Assembly (NCBI GenBank): GCA_016930375.1
Contig: JAFGGU010000054.1
Span: 1 to 64,000, forward strand
Reading direction: 5' to 3'
Length of the DNA stretch: 64,000 nucleotides
Source: Bacteroidales bacterium
GTDB lineage: Bacteria; Bacteroidota; Bacteroidia; Bacteroidales; UBA10428
Part shown: positions 9,367 to 46,129 of the stretch, one piece after another
How the letters are laid out: each line of letters opens with the position of its first letter
How positions within the stretch are numbered: position 1 is the first letter of the stretch
Made by a program: the position numbers and the translations under genes
Notes under the pieces: generated by a model
Seen by the model: the letters and a program-made list of their open reading frames with translations, nothing else
Databases searched by the model: none
What the model was told of the DNA's origin: nothing

Positions 9367-10473
9367 ATGAACAGTAAGTTGATTGGAGTGCGTCTGACCT
9401 ATTTCCTGCTTTCAATCATTCTCCTGATATTTGGTTTAATAGTTGCCAAGGATTTCCTGTATCCGCTGGCCTTTGGCATTCTGCTTTCATACCTTCTCTA
9501 CCCTCTCGTCAATTTCCTCGAAAAGAAAGGCATGCCCCGCATCATGTCCATTTTGATACCCATAGTTATTGCATTGGTTGTATTTGCCATCCTGGCTCTT
9601 TTTGTTTTGAAGCGCGTCAGTCTTTTCATGGATGATTTGCCGGAATTCAGGGCAAAGACCATTGCCCACATTGAGGATATGCAGAGGTATATTGAAAGCG
9701 AATTCGGAATTCCGGCTGAAAGGTTCAAAAACTTTCTGCTCAGCCGAATTTTTGATATCGGCACCGAATCCGGAAAGATATTTTCAGCCACAACAGGGAC
9801 CCTATTTGTCATTCTGATGCAACCTGTGTTTGTTTTTCTGTTCCTGTATTACAGGACCAAATTCGCTTATTTTGTCCTCAAGGTGGTTGGCAGGCAGAAC
9901 AGACTCATTGCCATTCAGGTTCTCCGGGAGATTGCCAGTGTTGTCACCCGGTATATGCTTGGCGTAGCCTCTGTGGTGCTGATTCTCTGTGTTTTTAATT
10001 CCATCGGGCTTCTGCTGATCGGCATTAAATACCCGCTCCTGTTGGGTGTCATTTCTGCCCTTTTTAGTTTTATTCCGTATTTCGGCAATTTTATAGGAGG
10101 TTCAATTCCCTTTATCTTTGCCCTGCTCACGGAGGATTCACAGGTATATGCCCTGCGGATTGCGATTTTCGTTTATATTATTCATTTTTTTGAAAACAAT
10201 ATACTGTCGCCAAATATTGTTGGTAACAATATCCGCATCAATCCCTTTATAATAATACTGGGTCTGATCGCAGGTTCCATGATATGGGGAGTTCCGGGTA
10301 TGCTTGTGGTCATTCCCTTTCTGGCCATGCTGCACATCGTACTCAAAAAAATACCCGGCATGCAGCCCTATGTATACCTTATGGGAACAAGGGGCACCAG
10401 CAGGCATGCCCTTAATTTTGCCAATATCAGAAAATTTTTTGAAGTAATTAAAAGAAGGCTGAGAAGAAAATAA
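9367..10473 (+). CDS. AI-2E family (PerM/TqsA-type) permease
   Basis: This is a 368-residue polytopic inner-membrane protein of the AI-2E/UPF0118 family. Hydrophobic pairs lie at about residues 8-45 and 60-85, then a soluble segment (about 88-135), then a cluster of helices with family motifs FIPYFGNFIGG and NIVGNNIRINPF and the final segment GVPGMLVVIPFLA. Members export autoinducer-2, sodium or other solutes, or influence membrane traffic; the substrate cannot be read from sequence. The C-terminal tail is basic and cytosolic. A -7-like TATCTTTA about 30 bases before the ATG suggests its own promoter. Confidence 0.85.
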   Translation: MNSKLIGVRLTYFLLSIILLIFGLIVAKDFLYPLAFGILLSYLLYPLVNFLEKKGMPRIMSILIPIVIALVVFAILALFVLKRVSLFMDDLPEFRAKTIAHIEDMQRYIESEFGIPAERFKNFLLSRIFDIGTESGKIFSATTGTLFVILMQPVFVFLFLYYRTKFAYFVLKVVGRQNRLIAIQVLREIASVVTRYMLGVASVVLILCVFNSIGLLLIGIKYPLLLGVISALFSFIPYFGNFIGGSIPFIFALLTEDSQVYALRIAIFVYIIHFFENNILSPNIVGNNIRINPFIIILGLIAGSMIWGVPGMLVVIPFLAMLHIVLKKIPGMQPYVYLMGTRGTSRHALNFANIRKFFEVIKRRLRRK

Positions 10474-34892: not shown

Positions 34893-36098
34893 ATGCAAAA
34901 AGAAAACTCAAAATTCCTGTTCCCATTGATCGTGATGGCCTCCCTGTTTTTCCTTTTTGGCTTCATCACTACCATGAACAATTCGTTGATCGATTACCTG
35001 AAAGATGCATTCAATCTCAATGAAGTCGAAAAACAGTTGCCCAATACATTTTTTTACGGTGCCTACATTTTATCCATCCCGGTCGGATACCTGCTGAACA
35101 GAATAGGTTATAAAAATGGTGTGCTGGCGGGCCTGGCCCTTGTCAGTGCCGGTTTTTTCCTGTGCATCCCGGGCGTTGCCGCAGGATACTATGGATTTCT
35201 GAGCGCCGTATCGGTATTTGCCATTGGCGTTGTTCTGCTGCAGGTGGCTGCCAATCCTTATGTAAATGCACTTGGCAAGCCGGAAACAGCCGCCAGCCGA
35301 CTGACACTAACCAACGCGCTTAACTCACTGGCGACGGTGATTGCTCCCATATTTGTTTCGATGCTGATTGTATCCTCCAATACACCCGGTGCCACCGATC
35401 CGAAAACCGTGCAAGGTCCCTTTGCCGGTATCGGCATTGCGACCCTGGTCATTGTAGTCGTCATGTTTTTCCTTCACCTTCCTGAGATTAAGGGTGATGA
35501 ATCCTCCGAAGGAGTAGCGAAAAAGTTTAAGTCAAGCGCCTACAAGTACCCGCATATGTGGCTGGGTTCACTGGCAATCTTCGTATATATGGGCGTTGAG
35601 ATCGGGATTCCCAGTTTCTTCGCTGATTATTCGGCCAAACTGGGCTTTACCTTTGACGGCGAAATGCGAACCAAGCTGCTGGCCTACTATTGGCTGGGAC
35701 TGATGATTGGCCGTATTTTGGGGATTTTCATCCTTCGTAAATACTCAGCCAGCCAGATCCTGAGTTTCTGTGCCATAGCAGGTGCAACAATGCTGCTCTT
35801 TTCGCTTGTATTGGGCAACATGAATATGGCTACGGTTTCGCTGGTGCTTTTCCTGGGAACCGGTTTGATGCACTCCATCATGTGGCCCTGCATATACAAC
35901 CTGGCGCTTGAGGATCTCGGCCCGCATTCCAAGGTGGGATCCGGCGTAATTGCCACTTCCGTCATCGGGGCAGCCATTTTGCCCATCATGATGGGTGGCA
36001 TTCAAAAAGGAATCGGATTGGTTGTGGCAATCTGTTGCCTGTTTATCTATTATGCTTATATCACCTTCTTTGCCGTGAAGGGGTCGAAGATCAGGTAG
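34893..36098 (+). CDS. FHS-family sugar:proton symporter (glucose/galactose type, GluP/FucP)
   Basis: This is a 401-residue major-facilitator protein with 12 predicted helices and the FHS-family start FFLFGFITTMNNSLIDYLK. The helix-4 segment VAANPYVNALGKPETAASRL is given here in two parts, VAANPYVNALG and KPETAASRL. These features place it with GluP and FucP. Its position 19 bases after galM makes glucose/galactose the most likely substrate; fucose cannot be excluded. A strong stem-loop begins 23 bases past the stop, inside the end of the opposing kinase gene. Confidence 0.88.
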   Translation: MQKENSKFLFPLIVMASLFFLFGFITTMNNSLIDYLKDAFNLNEVEKQLPNTFFYGAYILSIPVGYLLNRIGYKNGVLAGLALVSAGFFLCIPGVAAGYYGFLSAVSVFAIGVVLLQVAANPYVNALGKPETAASRLTLTNALNSLATVIAPIFVSMLIVSSNTPGATDPKTVQGPFAGIGIATLVIVVVMFFLHLPEIKGDESSEGVAKKFKSSAYKYPHMWLGSLAIFVYMGVEIGIPSFFADYSAKLGFTFDGEMRTKLLAYYWLGLMIGRILGIFILRKYSASQILSFCAIAGATMLLFSLVLGNMNMATVSLVLFLGTGLMHSIMWPCIYNLALEDLGPHSKVGSGVIATSVIGAAILPIMMGGIQKGIGLVVAICCLFIYYAYITFFAVKGSKIR

Positions 36099-36120
36099 AA
36101 ATTAAACCTGTATTTACTTT

Positions 36121-37485
36121 TCAAAAACCCTGCAGCAATGCGGGGTTTTTGCTGAGGGGCAACCGGAAAGCAAATCTGGATCCTTTCCCGGGGACGGAAT
36201 CAAGCAGGAACTTCCCGCCAAGCATATCCACATAGGCCGCGCTGATTGAAAGTCCCAGACCCATACCGCCATAAGTTCCCATATCGGATTTATCGATCTG
36301 GTAAAACCGGTCAAAAATTCTGGCATGTTCATTCTCGGGAATGCCAATCCCGGTGTCCGAGACATAAAATTCAATCCAGTCATCCTGCATTGTACATCCC
36401 ATCTCGACCGAACCCTTGTACGTAAATTTAAAGGCGTTGTTCAGGAGGTTGGAAATGATACCGATCACTTTGTTTTCATCAATCCTCACACTGCCTTTGC
36501 GAACCGGAAAAGTATTGTTCACACTGAATCCAAGCTTTTTTTTCGTGGCCAGCGGAAGATATTGACGGTACAGGTTATTCAGAATAACATTCAGATCCGC
36601 AGTAGTTTCGTTGATAATGACCTGGCCAGCTTCGATCTGGGATATCTTAAGTATATCATCGATTATGGAAAGCAACTGATTGTTGCTTTGCGATATGATG
36701 TCCATGTAATCCCTTTTCAATTTGGGCGAGATTCCTTCCTGTACGAGAAATCCTGAAAAGCCGATGATGGCATTCAGAGGTGTCCTTATTTCATGAGAAA
36801 TATTATGCAGAAAAGCGGTTTTGAGCTGGCTGCTCTCTTCAGCTTTCTCCATGGCAATTTTTAAATTCCCGAATAAATAAGAATTTTCCAGCGCCAGAGA
36901 AGTGATGTTTGAGAAGGTGCTGAACAGATCGATTTCTTCCTGTTCAAATTCATGTTTTCGTCCGATCGTCCCCATAATGATTACTCCTTCCACTTTCTTT
37001 TGAACCAGCAAAGGGATATAGACGAGTGATCCCAGATTTCTAATTTTTGTAATCAGTCGCTCTTCCTCTGTTAATATAGCCTTCGATACATCGTTGACGA
37101 TAATTGTCGTCGGGGATTCAATGACAGCCTTTATATAGGGATGGTTTTCCAATTTTGCATACCTGAATTCTTCAGGGTATTCTGCCGGAAGCGGGGGGAA
37201 TGTGGCTTCGAGGAACAGGTCTTTTCCCTTGACAAAGTAAATGGCACTTGTATCTGTACCAACCAGATTTGCTGCATTTTCAACAATCTTTAGCAGCACT
37301 TCCTTACTGTCTAATGATTCAAGGAGATGAAGACTCATATTGAAAAGTCTGGCAAGGTCCTTGTTTTTCTTCAATAACTTTTCTTCAGTCTGTTTATGTT
37401 CAGATGTCAGTTCCCTGATATGCTTTTCAAGTTCAAGGATTTTTTTCTTCCAATGCGCATTCTGGTCACCCTTATTTCTTTCCAT
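36121..37485 (-). CDS. Cytosolic GAF-domain hybrid-free sensor histidine kinase
   Basis: This is a 454-residue kinase without membrane helices. An N-terminal coiled coil (about 5-50) leads to a GAF domain (about 55-205), HisKA with the phospho-acceptor in HNISHEIRTPLNA (about 228-240), and HATPase_c with N-box NLLNNAFKFT, DTGIGIP and GMGLGLS. No receiver domain is attached and no response regulator adjoins it, so it is an orphan kinase sensing an internal signal. Its C-terminal codons lie within a bidirectional terminator hairpin. It follows the fused transporter gene by 81 bases on the same strand. Confidence 0.88.
   Translation of the reverse strand: MERNKGDQNAHWKKKILELEKHIRELTSEHKQTEEKLLKKNKDLARLFNMSLHLLESLDSKEVLLKIVENAANLVGTDTSAIYFVKGKDLFLEATFPPLPAEYPEEFRYAKLENHPYIKAVIESPTTIIVNDVSKAILTEEERLITKIRNLGSLVYIPLLVQKKVEGVIIMGTIGRKHEFEQEEIDLFSTFSNITSLALENSYLFGNLKIAMEKAEESSQLKTAFLHNISHEIRTPLNAIIGFSGFLVQEGISPKLKRDYMDIISQSNNQLLSIIDDILKISQIEAGQVIINETTADLNVILNNLYRQYLPLATKKKLGFSVNNTFPVRKGSVRIDENKVIGIISNLLNNAFKFTYKGSVEMGCTMQDDWIEFYVSDTGIGIPENEHARIFDRFYQIDKSDMGTYGGMGLGLSISAAYVDMLGGKFLLDSVPGKGSRFAFRLPLSKNPALLQGF
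36122..36151. terminator. Bidirectional Rho-independent terminator with GNRA loop
   Basis: A 13-base-pair stem has left arm CAAAAACCCTGCA (36122-36134), loop GCAA (36135-36138) and right arm TGCGGGGTTTTTG (36139-36151), with one T-G wobble. The A-run before and T-run after allow termination in both directions. It ends the galK-galM-transporter unit and at the same time encodes the last residues of the histidine kinase on the minus strand. Confidence 0.75.
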
Positions 37486-37566
37486 AAATTCTTACATCAT
37501 GCCTGGTTGGATCATTATGGCGATAAATGTTAATTCAGATGTCAGATGCAAATTAATGATTTTATG

Positions 37567-39318
37567 TTATATCACCAAGCCTTTTAAGACCGGGGGTTGC
37601 TTTTCCTCTTTGTGAAATATGTTGTTCAAAATCGATGTTTCCGCCTTGTGCATATTTTCTTCAGAAACACTATAAATGGAGGGATTTCTGATTTCAAACT
37701 TTTCAAGAACCAGGTTCAGTATGTCTTTCCTTATGGATAGGATCAGGCACAAAGCCGGTTTGGCAAGCAGGTTTTCAAGACAGCTGCTCCAACCATGCCC
37801 CTGCAGTTCCAGCCTGCCAATCTCATCGATGATTACAACATCTTTATTCCTGGAGTTCTCAGCAGACAGAATACTTTTGCCCTGTTCCAGGGTCTCTGCA
37901 TTGATTTCATATTTTCCAATACCACCGGGTATTCCATTTTGCTTAATTCTCAAAAAACTCAATTTATTATCAGTCTCAACAAAAACCAGGTCATAACCCA
38001 GTGTTTTACCATCCTGCATAATACGGGGCGCATAAAAGCCCCCGATCAACAAATCTTTGTCCCTTAACCTCTGGAGAAGCCCGACCAAAAAACCTGTTTT
38101 CCCTTCGGAAACATCACCGGTAATGATAAAAACCGGTGCCTGCTGCTGCTTTTTCAGTGCGTTGAAACGGTCTTCCGTATAACTTATTAAAAGTGCCATC
38201 ACATCAGCCGGTTTCTTAATGAAGGTCTTTGCATCCGGCAGGTTGGCAACCACAAACGGGAGTGATTCAAATGCCAGTTCAAGGGCAGCCGGAAGCTGTT
38301 TGAATGTTGATTTCGCTAAAAAATTCCTGATACCGGGATTGTACAATTCCGTTCCCAGGGCCGAAAAGCCAACGATGACAACGGCTGCTCTGAAATTCAT
38401 CTGCAGACCGATGATCAGTCCGTCAGTCCAACGACTCTGGCTGCCATTCAGGGATGATATTAATACGGCGGATAAAACAGTAATCACCACAAAGAAGATC
38501 CAGAACCTGGGGCGTGAAAGCTGACGCATTGCCCGCTTATAACGTGACACCCATAAAGTGATCAAAAGCACCGACACAGGTATCCATATGTATATCGGAC
38601 TTTTATTAATCAGAATGAAAGTCATAACAAGACCTGCAAAGCTCAGTATGAGCCAGCTTGTTGAATAGGGAAAATGAACATCCCGGTTGTTCTGCAACGC
38701 AACAGGCTGTCGTGGGCATACCTGTCCCCTGATATCCTGATTGCCGGCTATGCTCCTCGCCATCTTTACTCCAGCCGCTGCAGCAAACAGGCCGAAAAGT
38801 ATATAAACGGCCAGTAAAATCAGTACCGGTAGCCAAAAAATATCGAATTGCAGGTTTAGTTGTTGTTCGGCATAATTCAGAACGTTTGCATATATTTCAA
38901 CGATATTGTTTCCGTAGTAGATAATGTAGTTGATGATTTTCTGCGTCAGAATCCATGACATGGCCAGGGCAGAACCCAAAAAAAAGCCGGCCAGGTTTCT
39001 TCCCAACAATCTAACGGAAATATCAAGCAATAAAGCCTCCATAACAATGGCCACCATGGGTCCCAAAAGAACAGCGCTTGGCGACATGGTTTTCATCACG
39101 GCGCATATCAGTCCGCTGCGCCAGAACAGTCCCCTGTCTTTCCATTTATAGGCTACCGAGATCATCAGTATCAGTCCGATTGCAGTCAGGATATTTCCTT
39201 TGAAAGGAATATTCAGGTTGTGCAGAAAACTGCCCAGAATGATTTCGGATGCTGCCCAGATGGCACCCAAAATGGATGCCTTCAACCAGACATCGCTGAG
39301 TACATGCCTGTCGTTCAT
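37567..39318 (-). CDS. Fused membrane transporter-NTPase: S-like + EcfT-like + THEP1-like domains
   Basis: This 583-residue protein has an unusual domain order. Residues 1-195 contain about five or six membrane helices, like an ECF substrate-binding S component. Residues 216-395 contain four helices and a C-terminal stretch (LGTELYNPGIRNFL, then ALELAFESLPFVV) resembling the CbiQ/EcfT coupling subunit. Residues 395-560 are a P-loop NTPase with Walker A GDVSEGKT (401-408) and Walker B DVVIIDEIGRLEL (493-505), the THEP1/NTPase_1 pattern. It overlaps the TonB-receptor gene by four bases. I infer that it moves across the inner membrane what the receptor brings in. The S and EcfT assignments are by pattern only. 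Confidence 0.65.
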   Translation of the reverse strand: MNDRHVLSDVWLKASILGAIWAASEIILGSFLHNLNIPFKGNILTAIGLILMISVAYKWKDRGLFWRSGLICAVMKTMSPSAVLLGPMVAIVMEALLLDISVRLLGRNLAGFFLGSALAMSWILTQKIINYIIYYGNNIVEIYANVLNYAEQQLNLQFDIFWLPVLILLAVYILFGLFAAAAGVKMARSIAGNQDIRGQVCPRQPVALQNNRDVHFPYSTSWLILSFAGLVMTFILINKSPIYIWIPVSVLLITLWVSRYKRAMRQLSRPRFWIFFVVITVLSAVLISSLNGSQSRWTDGLIIGLQMNFRAAVVIVGFSALGTELYNPGIRNFLAKSTFKQLPAALELAFESLPFVVANLPDAKTFIKKPADVMALLISYTEDRFNALKKQQQAPVFIITGDVSEGKTGFLVGLLQRLRDKDLLIGGFYAPRIMQDGKTLGYDLVFVETDNKLSFLRIKQNGIPGGIGKYEINAETLEQGKSILSAENSRNKDVVIIDEIGRLELQGHGWSSCLENLLAKPALCLILSIRKDILNLVLEKFEIRNPSIYSVSEENMHKAETSILNNIFHKEEKQPPVLKGLVI

Positions 39319-41306
39319 TTATGAAAATTAAAATGCAATGCCGCATAAAGATTTCGGCCCATCTCGGGGTAGCCTTCATCCAGGGTATAGTTATTATCAA
39401 GCAGATTGTTTACACCGAATTCTGCATCCATAAATCCGGCAAAACGATACGAAATTTCCGCATTGGCAATGGCAAAGGCAGGTGAAATTCTTGAACCATC
39501 ACTGGCATTGAAGCGTTCTGAATTATATTCACCGGATAATTGGACCGTAAGTTTTTCGGCAAAAGTGAATTCTGCGGAAACAAATACTTTGTTTTCCGGA
39601 ACATCCGTAAATAAAAGTTCCGGATTGCTCAGGTTATCACGTTGAATGTAAGAATAAACAGCATAGAGCCTGAAACTCTTATACGGCTGGTAAATCAGAC
39701 TGAGATCAGCACCAGTAAATCGCGATGAACCGGTGTTCTGCATCTGTGACAGGTCATCCAGCACATTGTCCACCGGTTGAATGGTGTTATAGAGGCGGCT
39801 GTAAAACAATTCAGGCCGCAGTTTAAGTTTTTCAGCCACCGTCAGGTTGGCCGCCAGTTCAAGGTTAAGCGCTGATTCTGATGTCAGATCGGGATTCGGA
39901 ATGGCTACGCCAAGGCGGTATGAATACCGGTCTTTCATGGTAGCAAAACGGTTTTTATAGGCGACATTGAAATTTGTTGAAAAGGCATTCGAAAACTGAT
40001 AATAGGCAGCCAGTTGCGCATTGAATGCATCATTTGAATTACCGGGCATATCAGTTATGGTCTGATCAGCAGAATTATAATTCTCAGCTTCTAAGCTGTA
40101 TCTGACATTGTATCCCACACCAGGTATCAGGGTAAGTTTACTGACCGGTTTGTAAACACTTTCAAAGCTGATTGAAACTGTGTTGTCGGCAATGTGTATG
40201 GCAGGTTCACCTTCATTGTGCTCGCTGTGGTTGTCATTTTTCAGGTGTGCCGAGAATCTGAGGGTGTTATTTTTACCTGCATCTCTTGAAAATTCAAGGT
40301 TGCCGCCCAGCGTATAATCCTTGAAGTAGCTGTTAAAGGAATATCCTTTGATTTGCGTAGTGTAGCTATTATCATCATAACTCCTGAGCTTATTTTTAAA
40401 TTCATCAAAGAACAAACGTGCTTTCAGAAAGGATTTCTGCCCGATGGCTGTCTTTGAAATAAAATAAACGCTTTGTTTATCCCAGTATGGCCAGTCCCAA
40501 TAGCGGACCCTGACCGTGTTGTCATCCCCGAGATAAACCGGATTTCCTTTGCTCCCGTGGGAAATAATATAGTTAATAGTGTATTCATCCGTACTATTGG
40601 ATGCATATCCAATTTTCAGGCTTCCTTTAACATCTTTGCGGTAAGAATTGTCGCGTCTGTGGTTATTTTCAAGCGCCGAAGTGTCAAAACCCGCCGACAT
40701 GGGAACAAACTCCCGGTTCAATACGGAGAAACCTGCCTGAATATAAACTTTCCCCATTTTGCTGCCCAGGTTGAGCCGGGCATCATAACCATTGCCGCTC
40801 ATGATACCGGTTTTGGCGCTGATCTCCAATGGATAGGATGGTTTCATGCCGACCAGGTTGATGGCCCCTCCGAGGGTATTGGCACCGTACATCATGGAAG
40901 AAAATCCCTTGGAAACATCTATTTTGGACACGTCGTAGGTGGTAAAGCGGGCCAGGTCCATATAACCATCGTAAGGCACATACACAGGTATGCCATCCAC
41001 AAACACAGGTATACTGCGAATGTCAAAACCTCTCAGGTAAACGGCGCTTTCGTTACGCGGACCCAGGTTGCTAAGCGTAATGGAAGGCAGTATGCCAAGT
41101 GAAGAACTTACATCTTGGGCATTGTATCTGTGCAGCTCATTCGTCCCTATCATTTCCCTGTCAATGGTCCCGGTTATAATGACTTCTCCCAGTTGGAAGG
41201 GTTTCACCGGATAGGCTGCCGTGTCTGTTTCACGCTGCGAGAGGCAATTTAAAGTCAGGGTAAAAAACAGGAATAGCAATGGAATTCTGTTCATTCTGAT
41301 TGTCAT
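39315..41306 (-). CDS. TonB-dependent outer-membrane receptor
   Basis: This is a 663-residue receptor with a signal peptide (cleavage near LSQ, residue 23). The plug domain (about 35-150) has GEVIITGTIDREMIGTNEL, the plug segment GFDIRSIPVFVDGIPVYVP and YGANTLGGAINLVG. A 22-strand-type barrel ends FAALHFNF-like with terminal aromatic residues (ALHFNFHK). No SusD partner is present, so an ion, metal chelate or cofactor is more likely than a glycan. The fused transporter follows with a 4-base overlap. A ModE-box-like palindrome lies just upstream of the ATG, suggesting an oxyanion such as molybdate or tungstate. Confidence 0.85.
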   Translation of the reverse strand: MTIRMNRIPLLFLFFTLTLNCLSQRETDTAAYPVKPFQLGEVIITGTIDREMIGTNELHRYNAQDVSSSLGILPSITLSNLGPRNESAVYLRGFDIRSIPVFVDGIPVYVPYDGYMDLARFTTYDVSKIDVSKGFSSMMYGANTLGGAINLVGMKPSYPLEISAKTGIMSGNGYDARLNLGSKMGKVYIQAGFSVLNREFVPMSAGFDTSALENNHRRDNSYRKDVKGSLKIGYASNSTDEYTINYIISHGSKGNPVYLGDDNTVRVRYWDWPYWDKQSVYFISKTAIGQKSFLKARLFFDEFKNKLRSYDDNSYTTQIKGYSFNSYFKDYTLGGNLEFSRDAGKNNTLRFSAHLKNDNHSEHNEGEPAIHIADNTVSISFESVYKPVSKLTLIPGVGYNVRYSLEAENYNSADQTITDMPGNSNDAFNAQLAAYYQFSNAFSTNFNVAYKNRFATMKDRYSYRLGVAIPNPDLTSESALNLELAANLTVAEKLKLRPELFYSRLYNTIQPVDNVLDDLSQMQNTGSSRFTGADLSLIYQPYKSFRLYAVYSYIQRDNLSNPELLFTDVPENKVFVSAEFTFAEKLTVQLSGEYNSERFNASDGSRISPAFAIANAEISYRFAGFMDAEFGVNNLLDNNYTLDEGYPEMGRNLYAALHFNFHK

Positions 41307-41326
41307 TATGGAAGAATAGGATATTG

Positions 41327-41349
41327 CGTTATTCGATTAAGGAATAACG
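41327..41349. promoter_or_regulatory. ModE-box-like operator upstream of the TonB receptor
   Basis: A perfect inverted repeat, CGTTATTC (41327-41334) and GAATAACG (41342-41349), has a 7-base spacer and lies 21 bases before the receptor ATG. A promoter-like TATCTTCA (41354-41361, minus strand) is just upstream, so the repeat would cover the transcription start and suit repression. The E. coli modA operator, as I recall it, has the same outer halves CGTTAT...ATAACG with 12 bases between; here there are 11. The neighbouring ModE-type gene is the likely binder. Confidence 0.55.
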
Positions 41350-41406
41350 GTGGTGAAGATATAAATTCCTTCCAAGACAACAAAATCTTTGGTTACCCCA
41401 AAAGAG

Positions 41407-41757
41407 TTATAAATTCAGACACCTGGTCTGCGCATCCAAAAAAACAATGAATTCCTCTTCCGTTTTTTCAAATTTTCCAAGAATTTCCTTCCCAAACGGG
41501 GTGATCTGGGCAATGCCGCCTTGTCTGCCTCCCCGTTTAAGAACAATCAGCGGCGTTCCGGCGGCTTTATTCATCTGGTTCAGGCTATACCAGGCTTTTC
41601 TGTAGGAAAGATTCATTTCTTTTGCTGCTTTTCGCAGGGAGCCGAGTTCGGATGTTTTCTTCAGCAAATGTACCTTGCCCTCCCCCAACAGGGTTTTATG
41701 GTGAATCTCTATCCAGATACGTCCCCTTACGGTATATGTTATATTCTCGGTATCCAT
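41407..41757 (-). CDS. ModE-type winged helix-turn-helix regulator (DNA-binding domain only)
   Basis: This roughly 116-residue protein corresponds to the N-terminal winged-helix domain of ModE: GRIWIEIHHKTLLGEGKVHLL, broken here after GRIWIEIHHK, then GSLRKAAKEMNLSYRKAWYSL and the wing KRGGRQGGIAQIT. ModE is the molybdate-responsive repressor of molybdate transport in proteobacteria. The two C-terminal molybdate-binding (MOP) domains are missing, so ligand sensing must differ. The ATG at 41757 was preferred to a TTG inside the previous gene. It follows the 1141-residue gene by 10 bases and precedes the TonB-receptor gene by 100 bases. Confidence 0.78.
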   Translation of the reverse strand: MDTENITYTVRGRIWIEIHHKTLLGEGKVHLLKKTSELGSLRKAAKEMNLSYRKAWYSLNQMNKAAGTPLIVLKRGGRQGGIAQITPFGKEILGKFEKTEEEFIVFLDAQTRCLNL

Positions 41758-41767
41758 TATTATCCTA

Positions 41768-44700
41768 TCATTCAAGGGTCAGATGAACATATATTTTGCT
41801 TATTTTTCCTTCCCTATTGAAAATAGAATGGCTGTTTACTTTGTCAATAGCAGATCCCTGGATATTCAGAGAATTCCCGTTGTTCAAGATCAGGTCTATT
41901 CCTTTTTTACCGTCAAGCAGGTAAATTACCTGAACTTTGCAGTAAGTAAAATAAAGATGCGGCACCGAATGGCCATGGGAATTTTTTGTTCCCGGGAGAA
42001 TAAATTCATCCTTTTTCAAAACGACAGGATTAAAGGATATTTGTCCGTTATGTACAATCAGGCCAAGCTCAAAGAACCGGCTTATAACATCTTCCTTCAC
42101 CTGACCGGTCATACCCGGTTGCTGCACCCCAGCCATCCGGGGTGTATGGGAGTATGGATCAATCGGGAAGGCCCCGTATTTATCAGGCGTTTTATGAACT
42201 CCTATGCCTTCCTTTACCTCGGTATAATGTTCCGCAAGCCTGAGAAGGGTATCTTTGAAGGCACCATTATTTCTGGCTTGTTCAATGTTTTCGCCAATCG
42301 CGAGCAACAGTTTGGAAACCATATGCCAGTATATTGAACCCAGCCCTTCATACTTATAGAAAGTACCTGATCTACCAGTAAACGATTGATGATCAAATAT
42401 TTTCTCATATACCGCCATTACCGATTTGATCTCCTCCGGCATAACTTTTGCAACTGCTGTATCAGCAAGCTTCTGCAGTGCTTTTTTCAGAAAACCTGCA
42501 TTATTGAATGTACCATTAAAATGGTACTGACCTCTGGTATCTCTGGCAATTATACTTGTATCGCCCATTTCAATCAATTTCGACAACAGTGGAATTCTCT
42601 TAACATCTTCAGGGGGCACAATATTCTTTTCAAGAAACCAGGGCAATCTCTTGTCCGGATAGAGAATATAGCTTTCCTGATCCGCACGGTACAACTTGCT
42701 ATTTCTCATGGTATCGAGCACTTCCAGTGCCTCTTCGGGTGAAAGTTTGCCGGAACTGAGCACTGAAACCTGTCCTTCAAGCATCTCATACAAATGCCTG
42801 ATTGAAAAGCCGTCGTCACCGATAGTTAATAGATTATAAGCATTGTAGAGTTTATCTGTTCTTTTGTTTGCAACAATACTCTGGTCTATAAAAGCTTGAG
42901 CTGTTTTGAGAAATTCAATGAGGTACTGCTTCTTTACAGAAGTCCTTTTACCGGAAAATCCTTTGTATGCTTTAGCTCTGAAATCGCTTCCCACATTGCC
43001 AAGTTGGTCTGCCAGAAGCTTACGCTGCGTGTCGTTGAATCCATCTTTGAGCAATGATTCATTCTCTTTCAGGGCATCATCAATTGCAGAAAGGAAGTCT
43101 GCCATTTCTTCTGTAATCTCAAGGCTTGTATGAGAAAATGTCGAAAACAACCCGGTCATAAAATGAATGAACCGCCTCATATAATAGAGCGTAACCATGG
43201 ATACGCCATACCCGACCAGCGCATTGTTGGCATCGTTCCATTCGGGACGCAAGGTATTCATCCAGATGCCCGCCTCGGGGATAAAATTGCTAAGCTTGGA
43301 TAACAGCGGGGCCAGAATTTTTTCGGTAAGATTAACCTTGAATACCAAACCCGATTCATCAAGCAGCAATTTGCCATCTGCTCCCATCCGGGCCACAATT
43401 TCATCTATTTTTTGATGGGCATCAAAATCGAAGACAATAGAATCATGCGGGTTATCAACAATCTCCTGATAAGATTTAATCCGGTAAGGAATATTGGCAT
43501 ATGCAAACATATCCTTGACCAGCCATGAATTCAGATGTCCCGGAAAATATTTTTCCGATACCTCCATCAATTTTAGCAGATAAATTATCTGGTGATCACC
43601 CCAATAGCCGATATTCGAGAACGGATTACCGGGTTCAGGAACTTCCCAGTCTATGCCATCGCGGGTTACACGATACGGATTGTATCCATCGGCCGATGAA
43701 GCATTCACGAACTTGGCGATCATACCGTTTACATAACCGGGATAAGACAATGCCAATGCCTCCCAATTCTGGAAAATATCGCGCCAATTACCCTGGTAAT
43801 ATAGCAACTTATTGCCGCCTGCATCTTTAATGTTTATCGAAAAAAGGTTCCATGGGCGGCTTGGATCGCCATGCCTCCGGCTGAAGGTAAGCGGCAGATA
43901 TTCAAGAAACAGTCGATATAGATCTTCATCACCCTCTTTGGTTATTATTGTATCGAGCTCTTCATATTTGAGACTGGCAGGTAACTGATCGAAGAGTTTC
44001 AGGTGTCTTTCCAGCAATTGTTTATTAAAGTGCTTGATATGTTTGATGAAATCACCTTTATCAATAGAATATCCCTCGCTGAATATGCCCCCCCGCATCA
44101 CATTGAACAGAACATTCGAAAAGTGCCTTGAGACCACAAGCTTGTCGGATGAATCCTGAATACCATCTGCATCGGCAACAATAGCTTTCAGGTTAAGGGT
44201 GCCCTCCTGAATGTTTTTTTCAAGCTCGCCAATTTTATCCTTGGTCCCTGACAAAAAATCAATAAGGTTATTCACTTTCACCGAATCCTGGTTGACCTCG
44301 GCAGCAAAATACCATGTCTTGCTTTCGCCGGCATTGAGTGCAATGTTGGCGTTTGCAAAGAATGCCCCTTTTACTCCTTTTGATTCCAGCTCTTCAACAA
44401 CTTCTTTTCCCTTTCTGAATGGTACCAGTTGTCTTGAACTTAACAGAAAAATATTATTTTCGAGCCCGCAAGTCCATACCGTTGTAACTTTGAGCGCCTC
44501 ACTTGGTTCGGCTTTATCAACTGGAATAGATTCGAGGCGGAATAATCCCAGCGAATATTCTTTCACAAGCTCGGATTTTTTATAACCGTCGAGCAAGGTG
44601 GAAAACTGGTTTTGCATAAACCTCTCAACTCCATAAGGTAACAGGTTTTGCAGGCCATCGATCATTTCTACCCTCACTGATTCCAGTGATGTGTTCACCA

Positions 44701-45193
44701 GGATACTTTTCCTGATCCAACCGAAATGATCAGAATTCATCCAGCCATACCGAAAGGACAATCCCAAATCGAGGTTGTTTTCTTCGAAAATGAGCTTATT
44801 GCCACAAGTATTTTTGTACAGGTTCCTTTCGGTTTTGTACACACCTTCATACCTATCGGAAAAAGGCTCCCACAAATATTTTTTGCCTTTTGACGATACC
44901 CTGAAAATTGATTTACTCCCGGTTATCTCTGCTGATTCCTGAAGTTTATCATCTGTATAATATGGGAATAAGGCGCTTTCGGGGTTGATCCTGCCTGCTG
45001 ACAAACCACCGGTGCTGGCAATAAACATCCAGTGGTCAGAATCACTGGCAAGACTCATAAAAAACGGCAACATCGAATCGAAATTCCTGATTTCATAGAA
45101 ATCTTCCCCATCCATTGTCACAAATTTACCTTTAACTTCTTTCTCCCATGTCTGGAATACATTCTTACCGATCAATAATTCATTTTCAGCCAT
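41768..45193 (-). CDS. Large six-hairpin glycosidase/phosphorylase-like protein (GH94-like)
   Basis: This is a cytosolic 1141-residue protein without signal peptide. The first about 300 residues look like a beta-sandwich domain. The middle (about 340-760) looks like an (alpha/alpha)6 barrel, with YYQGNWRDIFQNWEALA and IGYWGDHQIIYLLKL in the style of six-hairpin glycosidases, and TLRPEWNDANNALVGYG recalling the WND motif of GH94 phosphorylases. The last about 350 residues match nothing I recognise. It is the third gene after a sugar porter and a mutarotase-like gene, so intracellular breakdown of an imported oligosaccharide is likely. The reaction is not known. Confidence 0.5.
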   Translation of the reverse strand: MAENELLIGKNVFQTWEKEVKGKFVTMDGEDFYEIRNFDSMLPFFMSLASDSDHWMFIASTGGLSAGRINPESALFPYYTDDKLQESAEITGSKSIFRVSSKGKKYLWEPFSDRYEGVYKTERNLYKNTCGNKLIFEENNLDLGLSFRYGWMNSDHFGWIRKSILVNTSLESVRVEMIDGLQNLLPYGVERFMQNQFSTLLDGYKKSELVKEYSLGLFRLESIPVDKAEPSEALKVTTVWTCGLENNIFLLSSRQLVPFRKGKEVVEELESKGVKGAFFANANIALNAGESKTWYFAAEVNQDSVKVNNLIDFLSGTKDKIGELEKNIQEGTLNLKAIVADADGIQDSSDKLVVSRHFSNVLFNVMRGGIFSEGYSIDKGDFIKHIKHFNKQLLERHLKLFDQLPASLKYEELDTIITKEGDEDLYRLFLEYLPLTFSRRHGDPSRPWNLFSINIKDAGGNKLLYYQGNWRDIFQNWEALALSYPGYVNGMIAKFVNASSADGYNPYRVTRDGIDWEVPEPGNPFSNIGYWGDHQIIYLLKLMEVSEKYFPGHLNSWLVKDMFAYANIPYRIKSYQEIVDNPHDSIVFDFDAHQKIDEIVARMGADGKLLLDESGLVFKVNLTEKILAPLLSKLSNFIPEAGIWMNTLRPEWNDANNALVGYGVSMVTLYYMRRFIHFMTGLFSTFSHTSLEITEEMADFLSAIDDALKENESLLKDGFNDTQRKLLADQLGNVGSDFRAKAYKGFSGKRTSVKKQYLIEFLKTAQAFIDQSIVANKRTDKLYNAYNLLTIGDDGFSIRHLYEMLEGQVSVLSSGKLSPEEALEVLDTMRNSKLYRADQESYILYPDKRLPWFLEKNIVPPEDVKRIPLLSKLIEMGDTSIIARDTRGQYHFNGTFNNAGFLKKALQKLADTAVAKVMPEEIKSVMAVYEKIFDHQSFTGRSGTFYKYEGLGSIYWHMVSKLLLAIGENIEQARNNGAFKDTLLRLAEHYTEVKEGIGVHKTPDKYGAFPIDPYSHTPRMAGVQQPGMTGQVKEDVISRFFELGLIVHNGQISFNPVVLKKDEFILPGTKNSHGHSVPHLYFTYCKVQVIYLLDGKKGIDLILNNGNSLNIQGSAIDKVNSHSIFNREGKISKIYVHLTLE

Positions 45194-45220
45194 CAGGTTA
45201 TGTATTATTGGTTAATAATT

Positions 45221-46129
45221 TCACAGTTGCGCATCCGGTATTAAATGAAAGAACTTGAAGACTCTCCGCCATTTTAGTTTTTGTCCGGGATCCAGATCTA
45301 TTTCCACGAACAATTCCGGACTGAGCACGTGTTTACATCCCCAGACATTCATCATTTCGGGCACGAAATCGGTACTTTCTTTCATCCCGATACACATGCC
45401 ATCGTGGGTAATTTCCCATTCCCCATTTGCCGATTGAAATTCAGTTAAAGGGCTAAAGAAGAATTCCTCTTTGGGTGTGCCTTTAAAATTCAACGAATTT
45501 GCATTCAGTATCACGGCATTCTCAGGGTTTACCGACTCGGTCATCCATGACGGATCAACTATTTTACAGGGTAACCTGAGGGTATAGCGCTCATCCACTT
45601 CCGACTTGTTAAAGGCAACAAAATTATGACAGTATTCATTCGTTTGTATTTTCTTTTTCCCAGTGTTTTCCAGCTCATAATCGATAGTAAACGCATTACC
45701 CGAGAGTTCGACCTTCTTGATTAGTTTCGCACTATATCCCCTGCAATCTTTTGGAAGGGAGGTAAACTTAACCCATTCCTCACCCCTTTCCATTTGAATA
45801 TCGAAAGGATCAATCTCGTATGCCGTATAAAACTCATAGGCACTGTTACTCTTTCTGGTAAGCAGTCCGACACCGATTTTAGGGAATTTCCTGCCCAAAG
45901 CGCAATCATCATAGCCTACTGGTTTCGTTATTCCAAATTCATTATATAAACCCTGACCATGCTGCTTTGGATCAAAATCCTGGTATTTCTCCCGGGAACA
46001 GAAACTATTTTTTTTCTCCAGCAGAATCTGAGAAATATTGCCTGTCCAGTCGAACCGCGAGCCTTCATAAACCTTACCCGGTTCTTCGATGGTCAGCTGC
46101 AGCATACTATTTTCCAAAACGATTGCCAT
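45221..46129 (-). CDS. Galactose mutarotase-like protein
   Basis: This is a 302-residue cytosolic protein with the beta-sandwich pattern of the galactose mutarotase-like superfamily. It has SRFDWTGNISQILLE near the start, a central YELENTGKKKIQTNEYCHNFVAF that aligns in style with the catalytic-His region (broken here: NTGKKKIQTNEYCHNF), and the C-terminal PELFVEIDLDPGQKLKWRRVF. It differs from GalM and from DUF4432. It lies 27 bases upstream of the large glycosidase-like gene and 58 bases after the sugar porter, consistent with preparing a sugar anomer for that enzyme. Confidence 0.65.
   Translation of the reverse strand: MAIVLENSMLQLTIEEPGKVYEGSRFDWTGNISQILLEKKNSFCSREKYQDFDPKQHGQGLYNEFGITKPVGYDDCALGRKFPKIGVGLLTRKSNSAYEFYTAYEIDPFDIQMERGEEWVKFTSLPKDCRGYSAKLIKKVELSGNAFTIDYELENTGKKKIQTNEYCHNFVAFNKSEVDERYTLRLPCKIVDPSWMTESVNPENAVILNANSLNFKGTPKEEFFFSPLTEFQSANGEWEITHDGMCIGMKESTDFVPEMMNVWGCKHVLSPELFVEIDLDPGQKLKWRRVFKFFHLIPDAQL

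Follow-up and report, generated by a model that had tools for sequence, protein, structure and literature searches.

A conserved ModE-box-type palindrome before a TonB-receptor gene in Bacteroidota, a probable operator of a single-domain ModE-type regulator

The palindrome at positions 41327-41349 of a 64,000-nucleotide window from a Bacteroidales genome (GCA_016930375.1, contig JAFGGU010000054.1; the window is the whole stretch of DNA that was analysed) is very probably, judging from its sequence and conservation, where a regulator of the molybdenum type binds. We hold with considerable confidence that it is the operator of a single-domain ModE, which represses a TonB-receptor operon when molybdenum (or tungsten) is sufficient; within this reading we infer that the 116-aa protein encoded next to it binds there and represses instead of activating, and likewise the metal signal and the substrate of the receptor. 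New here are the occurrence in Bacteroidota, a ModE without a molybdate-binding domain, the 11-bp variant of the site and a TonB receptor as the target.

The window site reads CGTTATTCGATTAAGGAATAACG, a perfect 8+8 inverted repeat with seven bases in the middle (CGTTATTC-N7-GAATAACG), which as a predicted ModE-box-type operator, with no strand assigned, is CGTTAT-N11-ATAACG with a spacer of 11 bp; an earlier note on this DNA had given the symmetrical sequence and its coordinates exactly. The site is part of a 100-base stretch flanked by a ModE-type gene (41407-41757, minus strand), whose end falls where the note had placed it, 100 bases upstream of the receptor, and by the TonB-receptor gene (39315-41306, minus strand). 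The closeness of palindrome and receptor ATG also stands, but the first ATG (41306) is 20 bases away and not 21, and the distance becomes 32 bases from Met5 (41294), to which the receptor orthologues align. The genome to which the window belongs (3.97 Mb, 85% complete) has this site as its single copy of the exact halves at an 11-bp spacer and no copy at a 12-bp spacer, and the window holds 2 matches at up to three mismatches against 0.10 expected. By itself the dyad is weak evidence and not decisive, because Markov shuffling of the 100-bp gap gave some perfect 8-bp dyad with a spacer of up to 20 in 74 of 2000 cases; conservation decides.

For the conservation analysis a profile was made from four receptor orthologues, and the best 80 of 250 relatives were taken as loci. 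Sites with at most one mismatch to any of five half-sites and a spacer of 11 or 12 were sought in the interval from -220 to +150 around the start of each receptor ORF. Such a site is present at 66 of these 80 receptor starts, whereas of the 929 other gene starts that these loci contain only 11 have one. The comparison is biased in favour of the 66, since these receptor regions had themselves supplied part of the information on the five half-sites. For this reason the count of exact CGTTAT/ATAACG halves with spacers of 0-30 is the stricter figure, and it gives 26 for the receptor starts (21.6 kb) and 4 for 1.52 Mb elsewhere. The earlier note had named absence of the palindrome upstream of orthologues as what would refute it; the palindrome is present there. 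A chance palindrome, which the shuffled gaps would by themselves allow, is refuted by this conservation, and we give it practically no credence. Identity with the window is 21/23, 18/23 and 19/23 over the site in L048, L049 and L052, and 23/50, 17/50 and 15/50 over their upstream flanks.

The script found no site in 14 of the 80 loci (L050, L051, L058, L059, L060, L070, L079, L093, L094, L104, L108, L110, L121 and L127); the miss in L070 reflects an ORF start that was placed too early, and at 9932 this locus does have a site with one mismatch. Six of the 11 sites at other gene starts, five of them exact and one near, belong to a second TonB receptor, apparently orthologous, that adjoins modE in Flavobacterium; orthology was judged by length and position, and one of the six was scanned. 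This scanned protein (852 aa, L067:7270-9828) has its own CAGTAT-type site and is encoded between modE and the first receptor, and its likely orthologues are in L071, L073, L081, L086 and L100. Bare genome-wide pattern matches were rejected as evidence and only position was used, since genomes often contain both the 12-bp-spacer pattern and the backward version that served as its control (42 genomes matched the 12-bp-spacer pattern, and 11 sites lay inside ORFs among the 30 stored loci).

The halves of the window site are those of a known ModE operator. Read from the upstream region of Escherichia coli K-12 modA (L153:1547), that operator is CGTTATATTGTCGCCTACATAACG, with the same CGTTAT and ATAACG halves and a spacer of 12 as against 11 in the window, just as the earlier note had stated; PMC545781 gives the E. 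coli ModE consensus as ATCGNTATATA-N6-TATATANCGAT. Both systems have homologous winged HTH proteins and a site near the start codon of a transport operon. They differ in that E. coli ModE has 262 aa with molybdate-binding domains and acts on modABC, whereas the protein encoded here has 116 aa without them and the target is a TonB receptor.

The ModE-type character of the 116-aa protein lies in its N-terminal winged HTH, which matches HTH_1, TIGR00637 (ModE_repress; E 4.9e-19, 68.2 bits, under the NCBIfam cut-off of 98.5), PDB 2ijl (E 1.7e-15, over the winged HTH region) and, with residues 16-97, E. coli ModE 1b9m/1o7l (E 7.5e-10). The domain search returned the HTH only; because the Mop/TOBE molybdate-binding C-terminal domain is absent, we describe the protein as a single-domain variant rather than as full ModE, and for the same reason molybdenum control is put forward as a prediction. 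No TOBE protein was found elsewhere in the 85% complete genome. The combination of E. coli-type operators with such a regulator raises the question of how the metal is sensed. Single-domain ModE proteins, consisting of the DNA-binding domain only, are described in two Desulfovibrio species and in D. psychrophila, in PMC545781, which states that the mechanism of molybdenum sensing in Desulfovibrio is not clear and predicts a Desulfovibrio site, CGGTCACG-N14-CGTGACCG, unlike that of E. coli; the window, in contrast, keeps E. coli-type halves. Between modA and modB of one genome with CAGTAT sites lies a gene (L084:7804-8208) for a stand-alone Mop/TOBE protein, a candidate molybdate sensor that might partner a single-domain ModE.

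The operator could instead belong to another regulator, with the modE-type gene a mere neighbour, and the site is indeed kept in 15 of 25 receptor loci that have no modE inside the fetched stretch. Where modE is present the site occurs in 51 of 55 loci (p 8e-4). Among 295 genomes sampled from the order, 107 have a modE relative, 42 an exact site with 12-bp spacer and 26 both (p 4e-4), and in 15 of them the site is 8-182 bp from modE; both p values are rough because the genomes are related and not independent. This proximity, the identity of the halves with those of the E. coli ModE operator, and the HTH substitutions S51A and K/Q43N, which go with a differing half-site (in one clade only), all speak against a different regulator, which we consider very improbable. 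No modE gene is present in nine genomes of the same genus.

The arrangement of the site varies between relatives in an orderly way. CnnTAT dyads number 53 with a spacer of 12 and two with 11, with none at 4-10 or 13-24. The 11-bp spacer is found in the window, L048, L049 and L052, which form one group of four rows in the receptor tree with a support of 92 (under the tree's mark of 95), and nearly all other relatives have 12 bp. Flavobacterium loci carry CAGTAT-N12-ATACTG, in which both halves are altered symmetrically; CAGTAT forms one receptor-tree group of 25 rows with a support of 100. Other loci have CGATAT, CACTAT or CGCTAT, each with the matching complement half. Three of the 11-bp carriers have a modE that can be read, and residue 35 of its product is Thr in each; in the 12-bp carriers that have this residue it is Ile, in 48 of 48. 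On these sequences the change in residue 35 and spacer seems to be a correlation resting on one event, as does each of the variant correlations, since each change seems to have arisen once. With spacers of 11 and 12 bp and CGTTAT, CAGTAT, CGATAT and CACTAT halves, these loci are a natural panel for protein-DNA specificity.

Beside the palindrome the earlier note had seen a promoter-like box. It is present but imperfect: a Bacteroidota-type element, TTTTG-19-TATCTTCA, can be read from the sequence at 41354-41385 (minus strand), ending 4 bases before the operator, and its -7 box has two mismatches to TAnnTTTG, which we take to be the Bacteroidota -7 box consensus. Boxes of this consensus fit the relatives better than the window. 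In the relatives they cluster 0-8 bp before the operator: of 69 anchored sequences five have an exact box, in each case at a distance of 3-6 bp from the site, and near boxes number 29 in the nine nearest offsets versus 33 in the other 39. A sigma-70 scan gave nothing at the operator.

In the control model that we favour, the ModE-type winged-HTH protein, whose gene lies 57 bases upstream of the palindrome, would bind it as a dimer contacting the two CGTTAT halves. Immediately after the -7 box, the bound dimer would lie over the point where transcription of the receptor operon starts, a placement that suits repression, so that transcription would be blocked when molybdenum (or tungsten) is sufficient and the receptor and the transport gene that follows it would be made when molybdenum is scarce. 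As the protein has no molybdate-binding domain, the metal signal would need a partner protein or an undiscovered mode of sensing.

The same palindrome could act as an RNA hairpin, either a terminator of modE or an attenuator of the receptor, and not as protein-binding DNA. The transcript does fold into an 8-bp stem with a 7-nt loop (-7.2 kcal/mol, z -2.1), and L056 gives a z of -2.7, but the fold of L101 is no better than that of shuffled sequences (z -0.07), the spacer of the relatives is almost always 12, and the stem is short and A+U-rich. In addition, no T run follows the palindrome, a terminator scan did not return it, positions 36000-46000 have no Rfam match, and the element also occurs at modE and moa genes and at E. 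coli modA. A hairpin function is, in our judgement, scarcely credible.

The receptor itself (39315-41306, minus strand, 663 aa, Plug E 8.7e-17) has the plug and barrel of its family, the profile from four orthologues matching BtuB 1nqf with an E of 2.4e-22, and is predicted to take up molybdate, tungstate or a complex of either across the outer membrane. Molybdenum genes were found within the fetched stretch in 13 of the best 80 of 250 receptor loci, with modBC relatives in 8 and Moco genes in 6 of the 80; an initial count of 15 was reduced when L052 and L074 were rejected as molybdenum neighbours, their genes being generic ABC ATPases. In three hand-picked loci (L084, L061 and L101) a di-haem peroxidase-like gene and an Oxidored_molyb gene come after that of the receptor. 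Outside the receptor family a comparable site is found at modE genes adjoining moaA (L033 and L034) or modABC (L039, and L040 with a spacer of 10). The gene cluster of the window contains no molybdenum gene, and the genome encodes one molybdopterin oxidoreductase, of 745 aa. Taken at the level of gene content, these neighbourhoods point to molybdenum, with tungstate possible too.

Protein and site could both be correctly assigned and the signal or cargo still be tungstate or a complex of molybdenum or tungsten, or binding could activate transcription, a set of variants that we regard as possible if rather unlikely. The regulator's want of a Mop domain would be compatible with them, as would the resemblance of the receptor relatives to heme, B12 and siderophore receptors, which are carriers of complexes. 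On the other side, modABC, Moco genes and molybdoenzymes adjoin some of the relatives, AFOR_C (the tungsten aldehyde oxidoreductase family) is absent from the genome of the window, and the operator is positioned at the inferred start site or beyond it, as suits repression.

Seen with the predicted repression of the receptor by molybdenum, an operator-type site kept before an uptake gene across many Bacteroidota suggests active uptake of molybdenum in these bacteria via a gated outer-membrane receptor. Molybdate is usually thought to cross the outer membrane through porins, and the repeated occurrence of a TonB-type receptor at a ModE operator makes active outer-membrane molybdenum uptake directly testable. 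The earlier note had called an operator conserved across such distant phyla notable; the conservation is borne out, but the idea is not new, since a 2003 title by Studholme and Pau reportedly already announces a ModE element conserved across phyla, without naming Bacteroidota. A TonB receptor for molybdate and Bacteroidota ModE sites were not found in the literature covered, which included the available parts of PMC2700814, PMC12758843, PMC10845959 and PMC9542535; this result is no proof of novelty, because the search could not distinguish the word ModE from "mode" and because RegPrecise and subscription journals were outside its scope.

The gene after the receptor (37567-39318, minus strand, overlapping it by 4 bp and in line with it) is the boldest and least tested lead. 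Its 583-aa product, a predicted inner-membrane partner, consists of an ECF S-component-like membrane domain, a second membrane domain and a C-terminal THEP1-type NTPase (NTPase_1 E 5.2e-21; 1ye8 Z 18.1 over 161 residues). Modelled without the NTPase, residues 7-198 appear to fold like the S component 5edl of ECF transporters (Z 12.6, rmsd 4.0, 166 aligned, the next match reaching 5.1), with a pLDDT of 71.7 for the model of the membrane part and a warning from the aligner that helical bundles can reach such a Z. This match came from a second-look aligner; Foldseek gave none under 0.001 for the membrane part, and the S-component-like domain has no sequence match in the PDB. For a T component (CbiQ/EcfT), residues 215-390 gave no match in Pfam or by hhalign against the CbiQ of the same genome; in our own reading residues 300-370 resemble one. 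ECF transporters use an ABC ATPase, unlike this protein, whose own NTPase is of THEP1 type, although it may have a partner ATPase encoded elsewhere.

A relative of this gene is present in 11 of the 80 receptor loci (best 80 of 250). Of 13 genomes with the gene, one has a ModB above the cut-off (G324), three have intermediate matches of 131-149 bits (G314, G315 and G320) and nine have 64.5 bits or less or none, in a sample of mostly incomplete bins in which G032 and the genome of L053 look like the same organism; two of three genomes without the gene at the receptor are above the cut-off. The ModB matches in the genome of the window look, by sequence, like polyamine permeases. That carriers mostly lack ModB is suggestive only. 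One could picture the operon as a complete ABC-independent molybdenum or tungsten uptake system, in which a TonB receptor and an S-component/THEP1 importer replace ModABC under a single-domain ModE whose dimer was re-set to 11 bp with Ile35Thr, a proposal that we advance tentatively and consider doubtful as a whole.

Several relatives of the 583-aa gene adjoin a DUF364/DUF4213 gene, putatively for metal chelation (L048:11992-12804, L050:8264-9079, L104:12093-12812 and L203:823-1635), and the order in L203 is modE, site, DUF364 and S-THEP1-like gene without a receptor. In the window, 81 bases separate the end of the 583-aa gene from the start of a GAF histidine kinase gene (36121-37485) on the same strand. 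Genes of about 430 aa adjoin modE or modABC in L040:6228-7532, L047:6860-8134, L184:1648-2946 and L195:2371-3024, and the two that were scanned, in L184 and L195, match Alginate_exp outer-membrane porins; in other lineages molybdate may perhaps enter by such porins. Finally, CGTTATG-N10-CATAACG stands directly before aldehyde dehydrogenase genes at L178:1501, L200:1048 and L201:1501, possibly a case of a metal-free enzyme under ModE control; the L178 protein is above the cut-off for TIGR01236, glutamate-semialdehyde dehydrogenase, and in L200 modE adjoins the site.
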